Assembly: GCF_000427685.1 (NCBI RefSeq)
Contig: NZ_KE386573.1
Span: 62,001-126,000, forward strand
Source: Haloplanus natans DSM 17983
GTDB lineage: Archaea; Halobacteriota; Halobacteria; Halobacteriales; Haloferacaceae
Direction of reading: 5' to 3'
DNA length: 64,000 nt
Shown: piece by piece, positions 6,163 to 57,265 of the stretch
Layout of the letters: every line of letters begins with the position of its first letter
How positions within the stretch are numbered: position 1 is the first letter of the stretch
Made by a program: the position numbers and the translations under genes
Notes under the pieces: model-generated
What the model was told of the DNA's origin: nothing
Seen by the model: the letters and a program-made list of their open reading frames with translations, nothing else
Databases searched by the model: none

Positions 6163-6239
6163 CCCCCGCCCGGAGCGCCCGGGCCAACGCCATCGGCAAC
6201 TGTTCGTCTCGATCCCAGTCGACGACGGCCGCCCCGACC
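6163..6239 (+). repeat. 77-bp perfect direct repeat, copy 1 (between DUF58 and DUF7519)
   Basis: Identical over 77 bases to 6273-6349, with 33 unique bases between them, so the copies are offset by 110 bp. Copy 2 encodes the last 25 or so residues of the DUF58 protein. Copy 1 encodes the same tail in another frame and runs into the TGA at 6152-6154. Removing 110 bp restores a DUF58 reading frame that ends in RAGGQP and overlaps the DUF7519 start as GTGA. Confidence 0.95.
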
Positions 6240-6264: not shown

Positions 6265-7557
6265 TCACCGCACCCCCGCCCGGAGCGCCCGGGCCAACGC
6301 CATCGGCAACTGTTCGTCTCGATCCCAGTCGACGACGGCCGCCCCGACCCCTCGCATCCGGTCGAGCCGAACCGCACGCTCCAGTGCGAGCACCCGCCCA
6401 CCCACGGACGCCGGCGTCACCGACGGCGAGAGGACGGTCACCGCGTGGCCGCGGCCCCGGAGCGACTCCACCGTCGACACCGCCGCGTCGTCGAGAGCGG
6501 GCGTACAGTGGATCACCTGGGCCGACGCGGGGAGGCGGCCAAGCAGTTCGCGGCTGTCGCCGCCGGCCCCGTCGGCCCGCACCGCGTCGGTGACCCCGTC
6601 GTCGGCGCCGGTCGCGGCGGCGTTGCAGACGGCGGCGGCGTGGGTCGCGAAGGCGTCGGCGTCCGGCGGCACCCACGCCGGTCGGCGGTCGGTGATCGGA
6701 TCTGCGGTGCCGAGGGCGCCGACGCCGACGTGGTGGCCCTCGTCGCGAAGCGTTCGGACCGCGAGGGTGGCGGCGTACGCACACAGCGTCGCCCCGGTCG
6801 GGCGCGACGCCTCGCCTGCGACGTGGTTCGGCTCGCGGCCGTCGATCAGTACCGCCACCCGTGCGGCGCGCTGTTCGCGGTACTCGACCGTCGATAGCTC
6901 GCCGGTCTTGGCGTAGCGCCGCCAGTTGATGCGGTTGACCGGGTCGCCCGCGCGATAGTCACGGGTGGCGTGAAACTCGACGCCGACGCCGCCCGTGTCG
7001 GTCGCCATCGACCCGGTGAAGGCCGCGGTCCGCCGGCAGAGGGGTACGTCCTCGGCATCGATTCGACACTCGAACGCCGCGGCGCCGTCGGCCTCGCGGG
7101 TCGCCTCGTCGACGACCGTTCCGCTCACGCTCGACGCCCGGAGTCGGACCGGCTCGAACGCGTAGCGCCCGCGGTTCGCGGTCAGCGTATACGTCGCCGT
7201 CGTCGACTCGCTGCTCCGAAGCGCCGCGCCCGTGCTCTCCGACCCGTCCCGGACGGCGAGTTCCTCGGGCACGCCGTCCCGGACGCGCAGGTCCGGCACG
7301 ACCGACTCGCCGACGTTCGTGGCCGTCAGCGTCACCTCGACAGGCTGACCCGGGAGCGGCGCCTCCGGCCGAATCTCGCGTTCGATCCGCACCCGGCCGT
7401 CGAGGGGCGCGAGCGTCGACAGCGCGCCCTGGATGACGAACGCGAGGGGGACGACCCCCGCGACCAGGAGCGTCGGCGTCCCCGTGCCGACGCCGACGGC
7501 GACGAGGAGGACCGTCGCCGCGGCCAACCCCCCGTACCGCCGGACGCGACGGGTCAC
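6265..7557 (-). CDS. DUF58 domain protein with altered C-terminus
   Basis: A 430-residue membrane-anchored protein that works with MoxR-type ATPases; the DUF58 region is related to von Willebrand A folds. Two hydrophobic segments occupy about residues 8-45, then an Ig-like region (VEVTLTATNVGESVVPDLRV), then the DUF58 hallmark around YRAGDPVNRINWRRYAKTG near residue 210. The GTG start at 7557 overlaps the TGA of the DUF7269 gene (GTGA). The last residues are ALRAGVR; without the duplication it would end ALRAGGQP and overlap DUF7519, so the extreme C-terminus and the coupling to the next gene are changed. Confidence 0.85.
   Translation of the reverse strand: MTRRVRRYGGLAAATVLLVAVGVGTGTPTLLVAGVVPLAFVIQGALSTLAPLDGRVRIEREIRPEAPLPGQPVEVTLTATNVGESVVPDLRVRDGVPEELAVRDGSESTGAALRSSESTTATYTLTANRGRYAFEPVRLRASSVSGTVVDEATREADGAAAFECRIDAEDVPLCRRTAAFTGSMATDTGGVGVEFHATRDYRAGDPVNRINWRRYAKTGELSTVEYREQRAARVAVLIDGREPNHVAGEASRPTGATLCAYAATLAVRTLRDEGHHVGVGALGTADPITDRRPAWVPPDADAFATHAAAVCNAAATGADDGVTDAVRADGAGGDSRELLGRLPASAQVIHCTPALDDAAVSTVESLRGRGHAVTVLSPSVTPASVGGRVLALERAVRLDRMRGVGAAVVDWDRDEQLPMALARALRAGVR
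6273..6349 (+). repeat. 77-bp perfect direct repeat, copy 2 (3' end of DUF58 gene)
   Basis: Partner of 6163-6239, lying inside the coding end of the DUF58 gene (residues VGAAVVDWDRDEQLPMALAR and following). Because 110 is not a multiple of three, the present DUF58 frame stops at 6265 just after this copy. Confidence 0.95.
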
Positions 7558-10880: not shown

Positions 10881-11159
10881 ATGGCAGACAAGCCGCAGTC
10901 AGGATCGATTCTCGGCATCCCGTACAACTTCGAACGTCCGAGCCTCGGGCGCCTGCTCTCCGCGCACTGGAAGCCCGGTGAGGGGATGATCGTCGAGAAA
11001 CCCTTCGGCATCGGCTACACGCTGAATCTGGCGAACTGGCGGTCGTGGATCGTCGTCCTCGTCGCCGGCGTCCTGCTCTGGCAGGAGCGCGGCGGCGCCG
11101 ACGACTTCGACGAGAGCGACGACGGCGACGAACCCGTCGAAGTCGTCGTCGACGACTGA
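10881..11159 (+). CDS. DUF5808 small membrane protein
   Basis: A 92-residue protein with the conserved block ILGIPYNFERPSLGRLL followed by EGMIVEKPFGIGYTLNL, one hydrophobic segment (WIVVLVAGVLLW, residues about 54-68) and an acidic tail. This matches the haloarchaeal DUF5808 family; the function is unknown. Its TGA stop (11157-11159) contributes its last A as the first base of an 82-bp inverted-repeat element, the arrangement seen at two other genes in this window. Confidence 0.85.
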   Translation: MADKPQSGSILGIPYNFERPSLGRLLSAHWKPGEGMIVEKPFGIGYTLNLANWRSWIVVLVAGVLLWQERGGADDFDESDDGDEPVEVVVDD

Positions 11160-11240
11160 GACGGTTTATCGTCACTATTCACCGGTCAGCCGCCGTGACG
11201 TGTCGGCGCCGTACCGGCAAACGGTTACGACACCTCCGAT
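11159..11240 (+). repeat. 82-bp inverted-repeat element, degenerate copy C
   Basis: Same 16-9-11-10-11-9-16 layout as the elements at 32005-32086 and 56024-56105. Left end AGACGGTTTATCGTCA, right end TTACGACACCTCCGAT. The inner arms (11184-11194 and 11205-11215) pair at 8 of 11 positions. It starts on the A of the upstream gene's TGA. The outer arms are decayed, but the T-A pair at position 12/5 of copies A and B is C-G here, a paired change. Confidence 0.7.
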
Positions 11241-11276
11241 GACCGCCCGTCACCGCCGTCCCGACTCCGCCACATC

Positions 11277-18651: not shown

Positions 18652-19956
18652 ATGAACCGGGACCCCGACGGTGGGCCACGGACGCTCACTCGACGGGCGG
18701 CACTCCGGACGGCTGCGGGGACCGTCGCCGCCGGCGTCGCCGGAACGGGCGTCGCCGGCACCGCCGCCGCCCAGGGCGGCGTCGACTACGGCGGCTGGTT
18801 CGGGAACGCCACCGGCGGCGAGACGGGGAACTTCGACGGCACCGTCGACCGGACCGGTCAGGACTCGGTGACGGTCGACGTCGGCGCCGAGGGCAACGGC
18901 GGGCCGTACGCGTTCGGTCCGGCTGCCGTCCGCGTCGATCCCGGTACGACGATAACCTTCGAGTGGGTGTCGAACACCCACAACATCCTGATCGAGAGCC
19001 AGCCGTCCGGCGCTAGCTGGGGCGGCGTCGAGGCCATCGAAAACTCCGGATTCAGCCACGAACACACCTTCGAGACCGAAGGCATCTACAAGTACTACTG
19101 TCAGCCACACCTCGCGCTCGGGATGAAAGGCGCCATCGTCGTCGGTGGCGGTGGTGGTGGCGGCAGCAGCAGTGGCGGCGTCGCCGCCGACTACGGCGAC
19201 TGGTTCGGGAACGCCACCGGCGGCGAGACGGGGAACTTCGACGGCACCGTCGACCGGACCGGCCGGGATTCGGTGACGGTCGACGTCGGCGCCGAGGGCA
19301 ACGGCGGCCCGTACGCGTTCGGGCCCGCCGCCGTTCGGATCGATCCCGGCACGACAGTCACGTTCGAGTGGGTCTCCGACACCCACAACGTCCTGATTCA
19401 GGAACAGCCGTCCGGCGCCGGCTGGAGCGGCCACGAGACGATAGAGAACTCCGGGTTCACCTACGAACACACGTTCGAAACCGAAGGCGTCTACAAGTAC
19501 TACTGTCAGCCCCACCTCGCGCTCGGGATGAAAGGCGCCATCGTCGTCGGCGCGGCACCGTCCGGGGGCGGCGGTGGTGGTGGTGAGACCCCTGCCGGCG
19601 GTGGTGAAGCCGGTGGTGCCGGGAGTTCGCCCGCTCTCACGCTCGCGTTCCGGCTGGTCGGCGGCGCCGTCGCGGCGGCGCTGGCCGTCGTCCTCGGCGT
19701 CACCGCGTGGGTGTTCATCAACTACGACGAGTTCACGACCGGCGGCGGAACGGCGGGCGCCGTCAAATCCGTCGCCGAACGGACGCCGGCCGAGTCGGTG
19801 TTCGAGTCGGGGGTCGTCCGCGAACTCGGCCACGACGACTTCGATCCGTACGGCACTGCGACGCTCATCGCTATTTACGTCGGTCTCATCAGCCTGCTGT
19901 GGGTGTTCATGTACTTCGTCGAGTTCCTCGGCGGCGGACCGACGGTGATCGGATAG
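18652..19956 (+). CDS. Double-domain halocyanin with C-terminal membrane anchor
   Basis: A 434-residue blue-copper protein that should carry electrons to the adjacent oxidase. A Tat signal (TLTRRAALRTAAGTVAAGV) targets it outside. Two nearly identical halocyanin domains follow (about residues 45-165 and 180-300), each starting DYG-WFGNATGGETGNF and each with all copper ligands: His in TH(N)ILI or THNVLI and the YYCQPHLALGMKG block with Cys, His and Met. They are separated by a Gly/Ser linker. Two membrane helices follow, the last in the context HDDFDPYGTATLIAIYVGLI and VFMYFVEFLGGGP, which looks like a small oxidase subunit (CbaD-like) fused on; that last point is inference. The oxidase subunit II gene starts 12 bases later. 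Confidence 0.9.
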   Translation: MNRDPDGGPRTLTRRAALRTAAGTVAAGVAGTGVAGTAAAQGGVDYGGWFGNATGGETGNFDGTVDRTGQDSVTVDVGAEGNGGPYAFGPAAVRVDPGTTITFEWVSNTHNILIESQPSGASWGGVEAIENSGFSHEHTFETEGIYKYYCQPHLALGMKGAIVVGGGGGGGSSSGGVAADYGDWFGNATGGETGNFDGTVDRTGRDSVTVDVGAEGNGGPYAFGPAAVRIDPGTTVTFEWVSDTHNVLIQEQPSGAGWSGHETIENSGFTYEHTFETEGVYKYYCQPHLALGMKGAIVVGAAPSGGGGGGGETPAGGGEAGGAGSSPALTLAFRLVGGAVAAALAVVLGVTAWVFINYDEFTTGGGTAGAVKSVAERTPAESVFESGVVRELGHDDFDPYGTATLIAIYVGLISLLWVFMYFVEFLGGGPTVIG

Positions 19957-30898: not shown

Positions 30899-32005
30899 AT
30901 GAGTCTCGACTGGACGCGCCGCGCTCTGGCCGGCACGCTCGTGAGCGTCGCGCTCGCCGCCCGCCCGGCGGCTGCACACGTCGACTACGTGACCGACCCC
31001 GGCGGATCGGGGCCCAGTGTCGCCGAGTTCTTCGCGGCTGTCTTCTCCCAGCCGCTCAACGTCGCCCTCCTCGTCGCCGGTGGGGCCGGCGTCACCGTCG
31101 CGACGCTCGGATGGCTCCGGTACGGCGACGGCGTCGCGGACGTGACGGTGACACGGCAGGCGCTCCGCTCCTATCAGCCGTATCTGGGCTGGCTGCTGCG
31201 GCTCGCGACCGGCCTGCCGCTGATGGGTGCCGGCTTCGGCGGCTACTTCTTCTCGCCCGTCGTGACCGTCGAGGCCCGTCTCGTCCAGATCACCCTCGCC
31301 TTCCTGCTCCTGTTCGGCCTGGCGACGCGGTTGGCGGCGCTCGCCGGCCTGCTCACCTACGCCGTCGGCCTCGCCACTCACTTCCCGACGCTCCTGCTCA
31401 GTCTGGAGTACGTCGCCGGCTTTCTCGGCATTCTCGTCGTCGGCCCCGGTCAGCCGAGCGCCGACCTCCTGTTCCGGCGGCTGATCCTCACCGACGGCAC
31501 GATCATGAGCCGCTTCCGGGGCCTGACGACTGTCGGCGACCTGCTCTCCGGCCTCGGCATCGAGAAGCCGGCCGCCGGCCTCGTCATCCGCGTTTTCCTC
31601 GGGCTCAACTTCGCCTACCTCGGCGTCACCGAGAAGTGGCTCGACCCCGGCCGGGCGCTCCAAGTGGTCGCGAAATACGACCTTACGGCCGTCGCCCCCC
31701 TCTCTCCCGAGATGTGGGTGTTCGCCGCGGGCCTGGGCGAACTCACCGTCGGCGTCCTCATCCTGACCGGCACGTTCACCCGGAGCGCCGCCGGCGCCGG
31801 CTTCGTCATCCTCACGACCACCCTCTTTGGGCTCCCCGACGATCCGGTGCTTGCCCACGTCACCCTGTTCGGACTCACCTCCGCCCTGCTGATCACCGGC
31901 AGTGGCCCCCTCGCCGCCGACCGGACCGTGATCCCGGCGCTTCGCCAGCGCATCGGTCGGCCGTCGACCGACGGCGACGCCGAAACGGCGACCCCCGCGG
32001 ACTGA
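30899..32005 (+). CDS. Larger DoxX-type membrane protein with signal peptide
   Basis: A 368-residue membrane protein. N-terminal hydrophobic leader with AARPAAAHVDYVTDPGG resembles a cleaved signal; about eight helices follow in two DoxX-like halves, the second containing VIRVFLGLNFAYLGVTEKWLDP, a typical DoxX start (FLGLxFxxxGxxK). Its relation to the smaller DoxX upstream suggests both act in the same redox or sulfur pathway (inference). The TGA stop shares its A with the 82-bp inverted-repeat element at 32005-32086. Confidence 0.8.
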   Translation: MSLDWTRRALAGTLVSVALAARPAAAHVDYVTDPGGSGPSVAEFFAAVFSQPLNVALLVAGGAGVTVATLGWLRYGDGVADVTVTRQALRSYQPYLGWLLRLATGLPLMGAGFGGYFFSPVVTVEARLVQITLAFLLLFGLATRLAALAGLLTYAVGLATHFPTLLLSLEYVAGFLGILVVGPGQPSADLLFRRLILTDGTIMSRFRGLTTVGDLLSGLGIEKPAAGLVIRVFLGLNFAYLGVTEKWLDPGRALQVVAKYDLTAVAPLSPEMWVFAAGLGELTVGVLILTGTFTRSAAGAGFVILTTTLFGLPDDPVLAHVTLFGLTSALLITGSGPLAADRTVIPALRQRIGRPSTDGDAETATPAD

Positions 32006-32086
32006 TACGGTTTATTGTAAGTCATTACCGGTGGATCGCCGGGACGGGCTGGCGATCCACCAGTGAGCAGTTACAATAATCCGTAT
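32005..32086 (+). repeat. 82-bp inverted-repeat element, copy A
   Basis: Outer arms ATACGGTTTATTGTAA (32005-32020) and TTACAATAATCCGTAT (32071-32086) pair at 15 of 16 positions. Inner arms GGTGGATCGCC (32030-32040) and GGCGATCCACC (32051-32061) are perfect around a 10-base loop GGGACGGGCT; the spacers between arms are nine bases on both sides. It begins on the A of the upstream gene's TGA. Related copies are at 56024-56105 and 11159-11240. Confidence 0.9.
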
Positions 32087-32173
32087 GATACGGTACTGGC
32101 GTACAACAGCCGTCTGCGCCGGGGCGAGCCCTCGCCGCACCCGATTATCAGACCTTGTACTTGGGGGGGTGCG

Positions 32174-32181
32174 ATTATTAA
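32174..32181 (+). promoter_or_regulatory. TATA box of the htrII-sop2 operon
   Basis: TTATTAAA, 26-34 bases before the ATG at 32208, preceded by a G-rich patch. The distance indicates a leaderless or very short-leader transcript for the transducer-rhodopsin pair. Confidence 0.55.
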
Positions 32182-32207
32182 ACGGTAGACAAAATCGGGG
32201 CACAAGC

Positions 32208-55887: not shown

Positions 55888-56023
55888 CCGAACGCGAAGG
55901 CGTAGGGCCGCCCGGGAATTAAACCTTCGCGCGCGAGCCGGGATGAACGCTTATATCGTCGTCTCCGTGGCCGACGCCCGTCGGACGGACGTTGCACCGG
56001 TTCGAGCGACGGCCGGCAGTCAC

Positions 56024-56105
56024 ATACGGTTTAGTGTAAATCATTACCGGTGGTTCGCCGACCCGTCCTGGCGAACCGTCGGTAAACAGTTACACTACTC
56101 CGTAT
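56024..56105 (-). repeat. 82-bp inverted-repeat element, copy B
   Basis: Outer arms ATACGGTTTAGTGTAA (56024-56039) and TTACACTACTCCGTAT (56090-56105) pair at 14 of 16 positions. Inner arms GGTGGTTCGCC (56049-56059) and GGCGAACCGTC (56070-56080) pair fully if two G-T(U) pairs are allowed. Spacers and loop have the same lengths as copy A. Relative to copy A, T-A is changed to G-C in the outer stem and A-T to T-A in the inner stem, both paired changes. Its outer end is the A of the TGA of the MFS gene on the minus strand, the same join as for copy A. Confidence 0.9.
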
Positions 56106-57265
56106 CAGGCGTCGACGCCCAGGACCCGGTTGGCGACGATGACCGAGACGAGGACGGCGAGCAGGATGCCGACGAGTCCGTAGGCGGCGAGCCAGCCGAC
56201 CTGCGCGGCGAGTGTCCCGGTCACGCCGCTCCCGAGCGAACTCACGAGCAGGACGACGGTCCGCACGAGGCCGAACCCGGTGCCACGCTCGTCGGCGGCG
56301 AGGTGGTCCATGAACCGGGAGTTGAGGACGCCCGGCCACGAGAGGCCGAGGCCGACGAGGAGGGTTCCCGGAACGACGGCGAGGAGGCCGCCGTCACCGA
56401 ACAGGAAGCAGGCGTAGCCGCCGACGCCGGCGAGAAAGGAGGCGGTCAGGGTCCGGTCCCGTCCCAGCCGATCCGAGAACCAGCCGAGCGACGGCGCGGC
56501 GACCAGCGTGACGGCGAAGACGACGCCGAAGACGAAACTCGCCCGCCCCGTCCCGAGGCCGACGTACTCGACGAGGAACGTGGGAAAAAAGGAGGCGAAG
56601 GACTGCCAGGTGAAGAAGGCGACCATCGCCAGCAGGGTGGTGAAGGCGATGCTGGGGCGGGCGAGCAGCGCCAGCAACGCCCGCGGGTCGACGTTCCACC
56701 CGGCGTCGGGGTTCGTGGGCGGCGTCTCGGGCACCCGCCACGCGAACAGGACGAGGGCAACGGGGGCGACGACGGCGGGGACGAGCAGGCCGGCCCGCCA
56801 GCCGAAGCGGACGGCGACGGCGGCGCTCGCGACGGGGGCGATCAGGCCGGCGCCCGACGCGCCGATTTCGTGGACGCCGAGCGCCCGGCCGGTGTTCTCG
56901 AACTGATCGGCGAGAAAAGATGTGCCGGCGGTGAAATAGAGCCCGGCGCTGGCGCCGAGGGTGACGGCGCCGACGGCGAACACCGCGATTCCGGGCGCGC
57001 TCGCGAGCAGGAGGCTCGTCGACGCGATGCCGCCCATCGCGAAGGTGACGACCCGGCGCTGTCCGATCCGGTCGGCGACGATGCCGCCCGGGAACTGAAA
57101 GAGGGCGTAGGCGGCCCACATCCCCGAGAGCGCGAGGCCGACGGTTCCTTTCGAGACGCCGAAGGCGTCGATGAGGTCGGGCACCAGCGGGCTCGGCGCC
57201 AGCCGGGCGACCATCGTCACGAAGAAGGCCCCGGTCGTCACGCCGAGCAGGTCCCACCGCTTCAT
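56105..57265 (-). CDS. MFS transporter
   Basis: A 386-residue major facilitator with 12 predicted helices. The MFS loop motif between helices 2 and 3 is GGIVADRIGQRRVVTFAMGG, and its counterpart in the second half is LGWFSDRLGRDRTLTASFLA. The start MKRWDLLGVTTGAFFVTMVA is typical. The substrate is unknown; no neighbours help. The TGA stop (56105-56107) shares its last base with the inverted-repeat element copy B. Confidence 0.85.
   Translation of the reverse strand: MKRWDLLGVTTGAFFVTMVARLAPSPLVPDLIDAFGVSKGTVGLALSGMWAAYALFQFPGGIVADRIGQRRVVTFAMGGIASTSLLLASAPGIAVFAVGAVTLGASAGLYFTAGTSFLADQFENTGRALGVHEIGASGAGLIAPVASAAVAVRFGWRAGLLVPAVVAPVALVLFAWRVPETPPTNPDAGWNVDPRALLALLARPSIAFTTLLAMVAFFTWQSFASFFPTFLVEYVGLGTGRASFVFGVVFAVTLVAAPSLGWFSDRLGRDRTLTASFLAGVGGYACFLFGDGGLLAVVPGTLLVGLGLSWPGVLNSRFMDHLAADERGTGFGLVRTVVLLVSSLGSGVTGTLAAQVGWLAAYGLVGILLAVLVSVIVANRVLGVDA

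Follow-up and report, generated by a model that had tools for sequence, protein, structure and literature searches.

The palindromic repeat that lies at three stop codons in the Haloplanus natans DSM 17983 window (the whole 64,000-nucleotide stretch of DNA analysed here) is very probably a non-autonomous, MITE-like transposable hairpin, which is nearly fixed at 80 bp, targets TNA and is mobilised in trans. The family is real, old and recently mobile in at least one genome of the genus (G006). Its unit consists of an 80-bp core placed between 3-bp direct target duplications of the form TNA (TGA, TCA, TAA or TTA).

Two of the three window copies, copy B (32003–32088) and copy C (56022–56107, minus sense), are near-perfect palindromes. 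Copy B, on the plus strand, comprises a left target duplication TGA (32003–32005) that doubles as the stop of the plus-strand gene upstream (30899–32005), an 80-bp palindromic core (32006–32085) and a right target duplication TGA (32086–32088). Copy C lies on the minus strand and its 80-bp palindromic core spans 56025–56104; the target duplication at one end (56105–56107) reads TCA on the plus strand and forms the TGA stop of a minus-strand gene (56105–57265), and the far flank (56022–56024) reads ACA on the plus strand and is probably a mutated TCA. Copy A (11157–11242), on the plus strand, is composed of a left TGA (11157–11159), which is the stop codon of the plus-strand gene 10881–11159, a decayed 80-bp core (11160–11239) and a right target duplication TGA (11240–11242). 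The genes were called with a simple codon-usage caller that returned 62 genes in the window, and with this gene model the contact of all three copies with a stop codon, as noted in the original prediction, was borne out.

When the RNA folds were compared to those of 200 shuffled sequences, copies B (z −7.9) and C (z −7.6) each folded better than all 200, and folding of copy C on the minus strand gave a z of −4.2. Copy A gave a z of −1.19, with 25 of 200 shuffles equally good. In the 30-pair layout of the family, copy B makes 28 Watson-Crick pairs, copy C 27 (layout started at 56022) and copy A 18, while the layout applied elsewhere in the 64 kb gave a best count of 20–22 pairs and a mean of 8.6. 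Thus, the repeat is real for B and C. The original prediction described an identical layout with paired changes in all three copies, and this description holds for B and C, but not for copy A, which keeps 18 of 30 pairs and 62% identity to B. Copy A retains the two TGA triplets 80 bp apart and is a decayed homologue of B and C. The unit first drawn, 82 bp starting on the A of the TGA, gives way to the 80-bp core with a 3-bp duplication on each side.

Searches of the organism's own genome (3.8 Mb, 8 contigs) revealed that the element is abundant. A DNA search with copy B as the query gave 58 matches, both strands counted, and a first covariance model, built from 29 copies, gave at least 150 scored matches. 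After the strands were collapsed and copies A and C were added from the window, a strand-free recount gave at least 101 distinct copies, so that the three copies of the original prediction have many companions. Note, 101 is a lower bound, as the copies at C7:2252886 and C7:2258969, which are alike in the element and the near flanks, were counted once, and more decayed copies were found at orphan arms beyond those tabulated. Subfamilies can be distinguished by their ends, TACGG, TAGTG or TACTG, and 91 oriented copies of 86 bases show a mean pairwise identity of 79% and a median nearest-neighbour identity of 94%. The paired changes first seen in the window extend to the family: in a set of 27 distinct copies, 95.1% of the cells are paired, and 8 of 32 pairs show changes on both sides. 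Like a MITE, the element is short (80-bp core), non-coding, bounded by terminal inverted repeats and multicopy (at least 101 copies). A third relative, TAGGGG-ended and about 78 bp long, is also present in this genome (L140, L151, L152 and L154), with an inner stem that reads AGATTCTCGCCGG or close to it. Two other repeats were observed in the window. One is a perfect 77-bp direct repeat (6163–6239 and 6273–6349; 110 bp from start to start) that surrounds the gap between two called minus-strand genes, and the other is a pair of 300-bp stretches (18726–19025 and 19131–19430) that are 82% alike, start 405 bp apart and represent an internal duplication within one called gene.

The flanks carry the evidence for insertion. 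In 76 of the 101 own-genome copies the same 3-mer stands on the left and on the right, compared to a mean of 36 and a maximum of 52 when partners were permuted and to 0–11 of 101 in shifted-comparison controls. The middle base of the 3-mer is the same on both sides in 93 of 101, TAA/TAA and TTA/TTA included, and the reverse-complement match that would be expected from a mere palindrome was found in 2 copies of the 101. The remaining 25 copies differ between flanks by at least one base, and we read them as mostly decayed. Outside the genus, the flank 3-mers are identical in 21 of 22 loci from 12 genera. These 22 loci (23 minus one that lacked a readable element) are the best-scoring matches of a model that included the flanking triplets, so their bias to TGA and TCA was partly selected by the model, while equality of left and right was not part of it. 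We also considered a fixed TGA at the element end, a possible Y1-type outcome. This was rejected, as TGA/TGA, TCA/TCA, TTA/TTA and TAA/TAA all occur in one arm orientation, and the six copies flanked on both sides by TAA or TTA indicate that the flank triplet is not a fixed element-end TGA. The original suggestion of a miniature element that inserts at TGA was thus essentially right, except that the target is a TNA triplet, which is duplicated on insertion, and not TGA in its role as a stop codon.

Two observations demonstrate mobility: a set of eight identical copies and a filled/empty comparison inside another repeat. In G006, a genome of the same genus, eight identical 80-bp cores (L160–L167) have intact duplications, which are TGA in six and TCA in two. 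One of these, L165, is inserted as TGA-element-TGA within a member of a second 80-bp palindromic family that starts TAGTAGCGATTGAAA. The empty site is provided by intact copies of this second family, L259 and L269 in G006 and L273 in G002, in which GCGATTGA is followed directly by AACTG, with one TGA. Moreover, at L133 (G008) a different copy is found at the same base of the second family in the opposite orientation. At L140 the element stands in tandem with a TAGGGG-type relative, in the order TGA-element-TGA-second element-TGA, and the middle TGA is common to both. The second family itself runs from TAGTAGCGATTGAAA to TTTCAATCGCTACTA and was seen in G006, G008, G002 and others (L165, L133, L259, L269, L273). 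It has an internal asymmetry like that of the main element, with GTCATTAC in one arm and CTGTTTGC in the other, its exact start pattern is present in 5 of 12 genus genomes, and its target duplication is perhaps TA.

The hairpin is conserved well beyond Haloplanus. With the first covariance model, 17 of 40 genomes were matched, namely the organism's own, each of the 11 further members of the genus and 5 of the 28 genomes from outside the genus. A second model, built from 16 sequences of several haloarchaeal families and applied with E values up to 1e-5, matched at least 84 of 194 genomes of the class, representing at least 33 of 65 genera and seven family codes under strict filters; the 84 include the window's own genome and three others of its genus. 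Carriers with the element on plasmids are Halomicrobium mukohataei, Natrialbaceae archaeon AArc-T1-2, Haloarcula sinaiiensis, Haloarcula marismortui, Halomontanus rarus, Halococcus dombrowskii and Natronomonas gomsonensis; a plasmid copy in Haloplanus sp. GDY1 is decayed, and a Haloferacaceae MAG is a further carrier. The phage collection gave no match to the element, and viral contigs gave no match for one strict pattern. In a wider contig collection, a weak guide to distribution, a long pattern gave 0 and a shorter pattern 3 stretches, two of which, from Pseudomonas, lack a palindrome and were judged by inspection to be chance.

In the 19 outside loci of 86 bases (from the 22), the inner stem differs in sequence and 13–16 of its 16 positions are paired. 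By contrast, pairing at positions 19, 21 and 22 is seen in none of the 19, and in 2, 1 and 3, respectively, of 93 own-genome copies. The motif GTCA, or a close variant, is present on one arm in all 19 outside loci and in 91 of the 93 own-genome copies. Template switching between the arms should erase such an unpaired loop, and from this we infer that a DNA hairpin or cruciform containing an internal loop has been selected along the transposing lineages. When copies are oriented by the GTCA arm, the commonest loops are found both ways round (12:10, 8:7 and 5:8), and the Halomicrobium copies L246 and L247 differ by an inversion of the loop. Inversion at every transposition was ruled out by the eight-copy burst in G006, which is in one orientation and indicates that inversion is slower than transposition. 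The likely origin of the inverted loops is strand switching, or recombination within the palindrome, over time.

We next turn to the stop codons. The preferred target context is GNC-TNA-GNC: a G occupies position +1 in 59% and a C position +3 in 64% of the sequences beside copies, compared to 26% and 39%, respectively, after the called stops of the window, and both preferences are mirrored on the left. Stops were called with a codon-usage classifier that recognised 29 of 34 training stops and called 30 of 1081 TGA triplets in the window. By this measure, 63 of the 101 copies lie exactly at a called stop. A called stop is the site of 49 of the 70 copies whose TGA/TCA duplications are perfect, and of 2 of the 6 with TAA/TTA duplications. 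The window contains 31 TGA at called stops, 174 between genes and 884 in genes. If only insertions at stops and intergenic sites survive, the expected share at stops from the window gene model would be 15%, and it would rise to 36% after addition of a symmetric flank preference, measured on the downstream side; both values are based on one 64-kb window and on our own gene caller. The observed 49 of 70 is a roughly two-fold excess over 36%. We attribute this excess to the elimination of copies that landed in promoters or 5′ regions, and a further bias, or a benefit at 3′ ends, may also contribute. Nine copies on named plasmids were examined in public annotation. The adjoining TNA is exactly an annotated stop in four (L246, L249, L251 and L253, the last of which has lost its second duplication), no annotated gene end adjoins L248, L250 and L252, and L247 and L254 are overlapped by an annotated hypothetical gene. 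The apparent anchor to stops can be explained because the TGA stop of a GC-rich gene fits the GNC-TNA-GNC context without damage.

The position next to stops, the very stable hairpins predicted for B and C and the strong covariation across the family are what would also be expected of a conserved RNA, such as a terminator, a 3′-end stabiliser or a processed or regulatory RNA, whose normal place is directly downstream of stop codons, as the original prediction proposed. The resident copies make this highly improbable. In 56 copies oriented by the upstream gene, the stem cells comprise 1473 Watson-Crick pairs, 62 G·U, 59 A·C and 86 others. Constraint on a transcript should favor G·U over A·C on the gene-sense strand, and the near-equal counts therefore give no sign of RNA selection. 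The same copies have no fixed orientation, with the GTCA arm first in 26, second in 28 and unassigned in 2, and, read relative to the gene, 21 loops are of the ACGG type, 19 of the CCGT type and 16 of neither. A T5 tract within 40 nt downstream follows 1 of 63 copies, much as it follows 1 of 62 called window genes, so there is no T-tract signal. Thus, neither RNA-type pairing on the transcribed strand nor a fixed orientation, as expected of a structured RNA, was found. A search of Rfam with 31900–32200, the region of copy B, gave no family near threshold, and two matches of one microRNA family were far below its threshold. Orthologous stops in relatives, not all of which are strict empty sites, are mostly vacant: among 11 relatives inspected over the 150 nt past the stop at site B, one has a decayed copy (L181) and one a probable remnant (L178), and in the other 9 nothing was recognisable by eye; at site C, where 8 relatives have a close orthologue, a remnant is present in one (L195) and the other 7 have nothing. 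Direct TNA duplications would also be unexpected for an RNA of this kind. For these reasons functional RNA was rejected as the main reading, and the resident copies instead appear to decay like neutral DNA. That copies lie at stops more often than the context-weighted 36% (49 of 70) would be consistent with exaptation, in which copies of a transposable element at 3′ ends have since become useful host hairpins at some sites. We regard this as unlikely, given that the copies show neither an orientation preference nor a G·U bias and, at the two orthologous sites examined, are not conserved in most relatives.

As to the mobilising enzyme, a DDE transposase is suggested by the 3-bp TNA duplication. 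Such duplications are made by the IS1031 and IS427 groups of the IS5 family. In G006, all 58 exact matches to a strict arm pattern, which variant ends escape, fall within full elements (17 pairs identified by spacing, 13 arms read individually and 11 inside full-length model matches), leaving no autonomous partner. The own genome gave 228 arm matches, compared to 5 in the control, and no autonomous partner was present among the approximately 100 listed; the orphan arms among the matches listed read as decayed copies or relatives, except L156, which shows no clear element. Of 27 PF01609 transposase loci in two genomes, G000 and G006, 21 were scanned and these contain no terminal repeats that match the element ends. 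A DDE transposase frame of 332 codons was noted at L216 and L218 (G006) and at L217 (G000). The elements at L216 and L218 are approximately 1.07 kb, with ends near GAGGGTGTCATAGA that are unlike the palindromic element; at L217 no ends were identified and the frame is interrupted by a stop. Beside the element copies, no transposase gene recurs in the loci that were clustered (ORFs of at least 100 codons, short flanks). Six loci make up the largest neighbour cluster, one ORF of which corresponds to the ATP-binding gene of an ABC transporter annotated in L246. A recurring cargo or neighbour gene was rejected, as this cluster reflects a common paralogous ABC family and the other clusters hold at most four loci.

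A different route would be movement of the hairpin as single-stranded DNA by an IS200/IS605 or RAYT-like tyrosine transposase, in the manner of PATE or REP sequences. The conserved hairpin with its unpaired internal loop is in keeping with this, as is the presence of Y1 transposase genes in 11 of 12 element-rich genomes, but Y1 genes are also present in 9 of 14 genomes that lack a second-model match and are absent from the element-rich G101. Presence and absence are uninformative as to Y1 transposase as the partner, with G101 as one counter-example. Single-strand Y1 transposition is not expected to give 3-bp target duplications with an equal middle base, and the duplications found do not fit that mechanism. 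Together with the lack of a recurrent transposase neighbour in the loci clustered, this makes a single-strand route very unlikely.

Of the known systems compared, MITEs and the small mobile repeats of Haloquadratum have most in common with the element. Prokaryotic MITEs are short, non-coding and multicopy, with terminal inverted repeats, a target duplication and presumed mobilisation in trans (PMC10969869), and the element shares all of those features. Unlike MITEs, its whole 80 bp forms a hairpin of nearly fixed length, with compensatory changes between genera and a conserved unpaired loop, and a limited search found no parent. In Haloquadratum walsbyi, SMR-A (about 110 bp) and SMR-B (HqIRS41, 80 bp) are described as having inverted terminal repeats unrelated to known transposons, as inserting into other mobile elements by a mode of mobilisation unknown there, and as lacking target duplications (PMC3119063). 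Set beside these by description rather than by sequence, our element is similar in size, in its inverted ends and in its insertion into another mobile element, but it makes a 3-bp TNA duplication. REPs mobilised by RAYT are described as palindromic, intergenic, high-copy sequences of 20–40 bp that often touch stop codons and have a GTAG tag at one end, with RAYT genes flanked by repeats (PMC3733652). The element is likewise palindromic, intergenic, high-copy and often in contact with stops; unlike the REPs so described, it is 80 bp long, has TACGG/TAGTG-type ends in place of a GTAG tag, lacks a recurrent transposase neighbour in the loci clustered and occurs in the Y1-free G101. PATE and other IS605-derived elements have neither terminal inverted repeats nor a target duplication, whereas the element has both. 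With the IS1031 and IS427 groups it shares the 3-bp TNA duplication, but no IS5-family member with matching ends was found among the loci scanned in G000 and G006. We found no description of the element in the open-access literature; it may bear a name in ISfinder or in the Haloquadratum supplement.

These data can be accommodated in a model for the MITE-like transposable hairpin. An enzyme supplied in trans would cut a TNA target with a 3-base stagger, preferably in the context GNC-TNA-GNC, and the element would insert in either orientation so that the TNA is duplicated, as seen in the flanks and in one filled/empty comparison. Where the target is a TGA stop, the duplication would restore the stop and hence leave the upstream gene intact. 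Copies would gather at stops through the context preference that we observe and through probable selection against insertions inside genes. Once inserted, a copy would decay like neutral DNA, while the palindrome and its GTCA loop would be kept only along lineages that still transpose, presumably because DNA folded into the hairpin or cruciform is required for mobilisation. More tentatively, the family could be an ancient haloarchaeal mobile DNA in which the transposing unit is the folded 80-nt hairpin itself, with its conserved asymmetric internal loop, moved by a structure-reading enzyme that leaves a 3-bp staggered duplication. Such a mode would lie between that of a single-strand hairpin (REP/IS200) and that of a cut-and-paste IS, with loops that invert relative to the arms.

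For an element that targets TNA, the TGA stops of GC-rich genes would be a harmless and preferred landing site, and no role in termination is needed to explain its position. Covariation beside stop codons, which is usually read as the mark of a functional RNA, can stem from transposition that selects for a DNA hairpin, and a comparison of G·U to A·C pairs separates these two types of selection. As the element is present in about half of the haloarchaeal genera sampled (at least 33 of 65), studies of transcript 3′ ends in these organisms may meet it.
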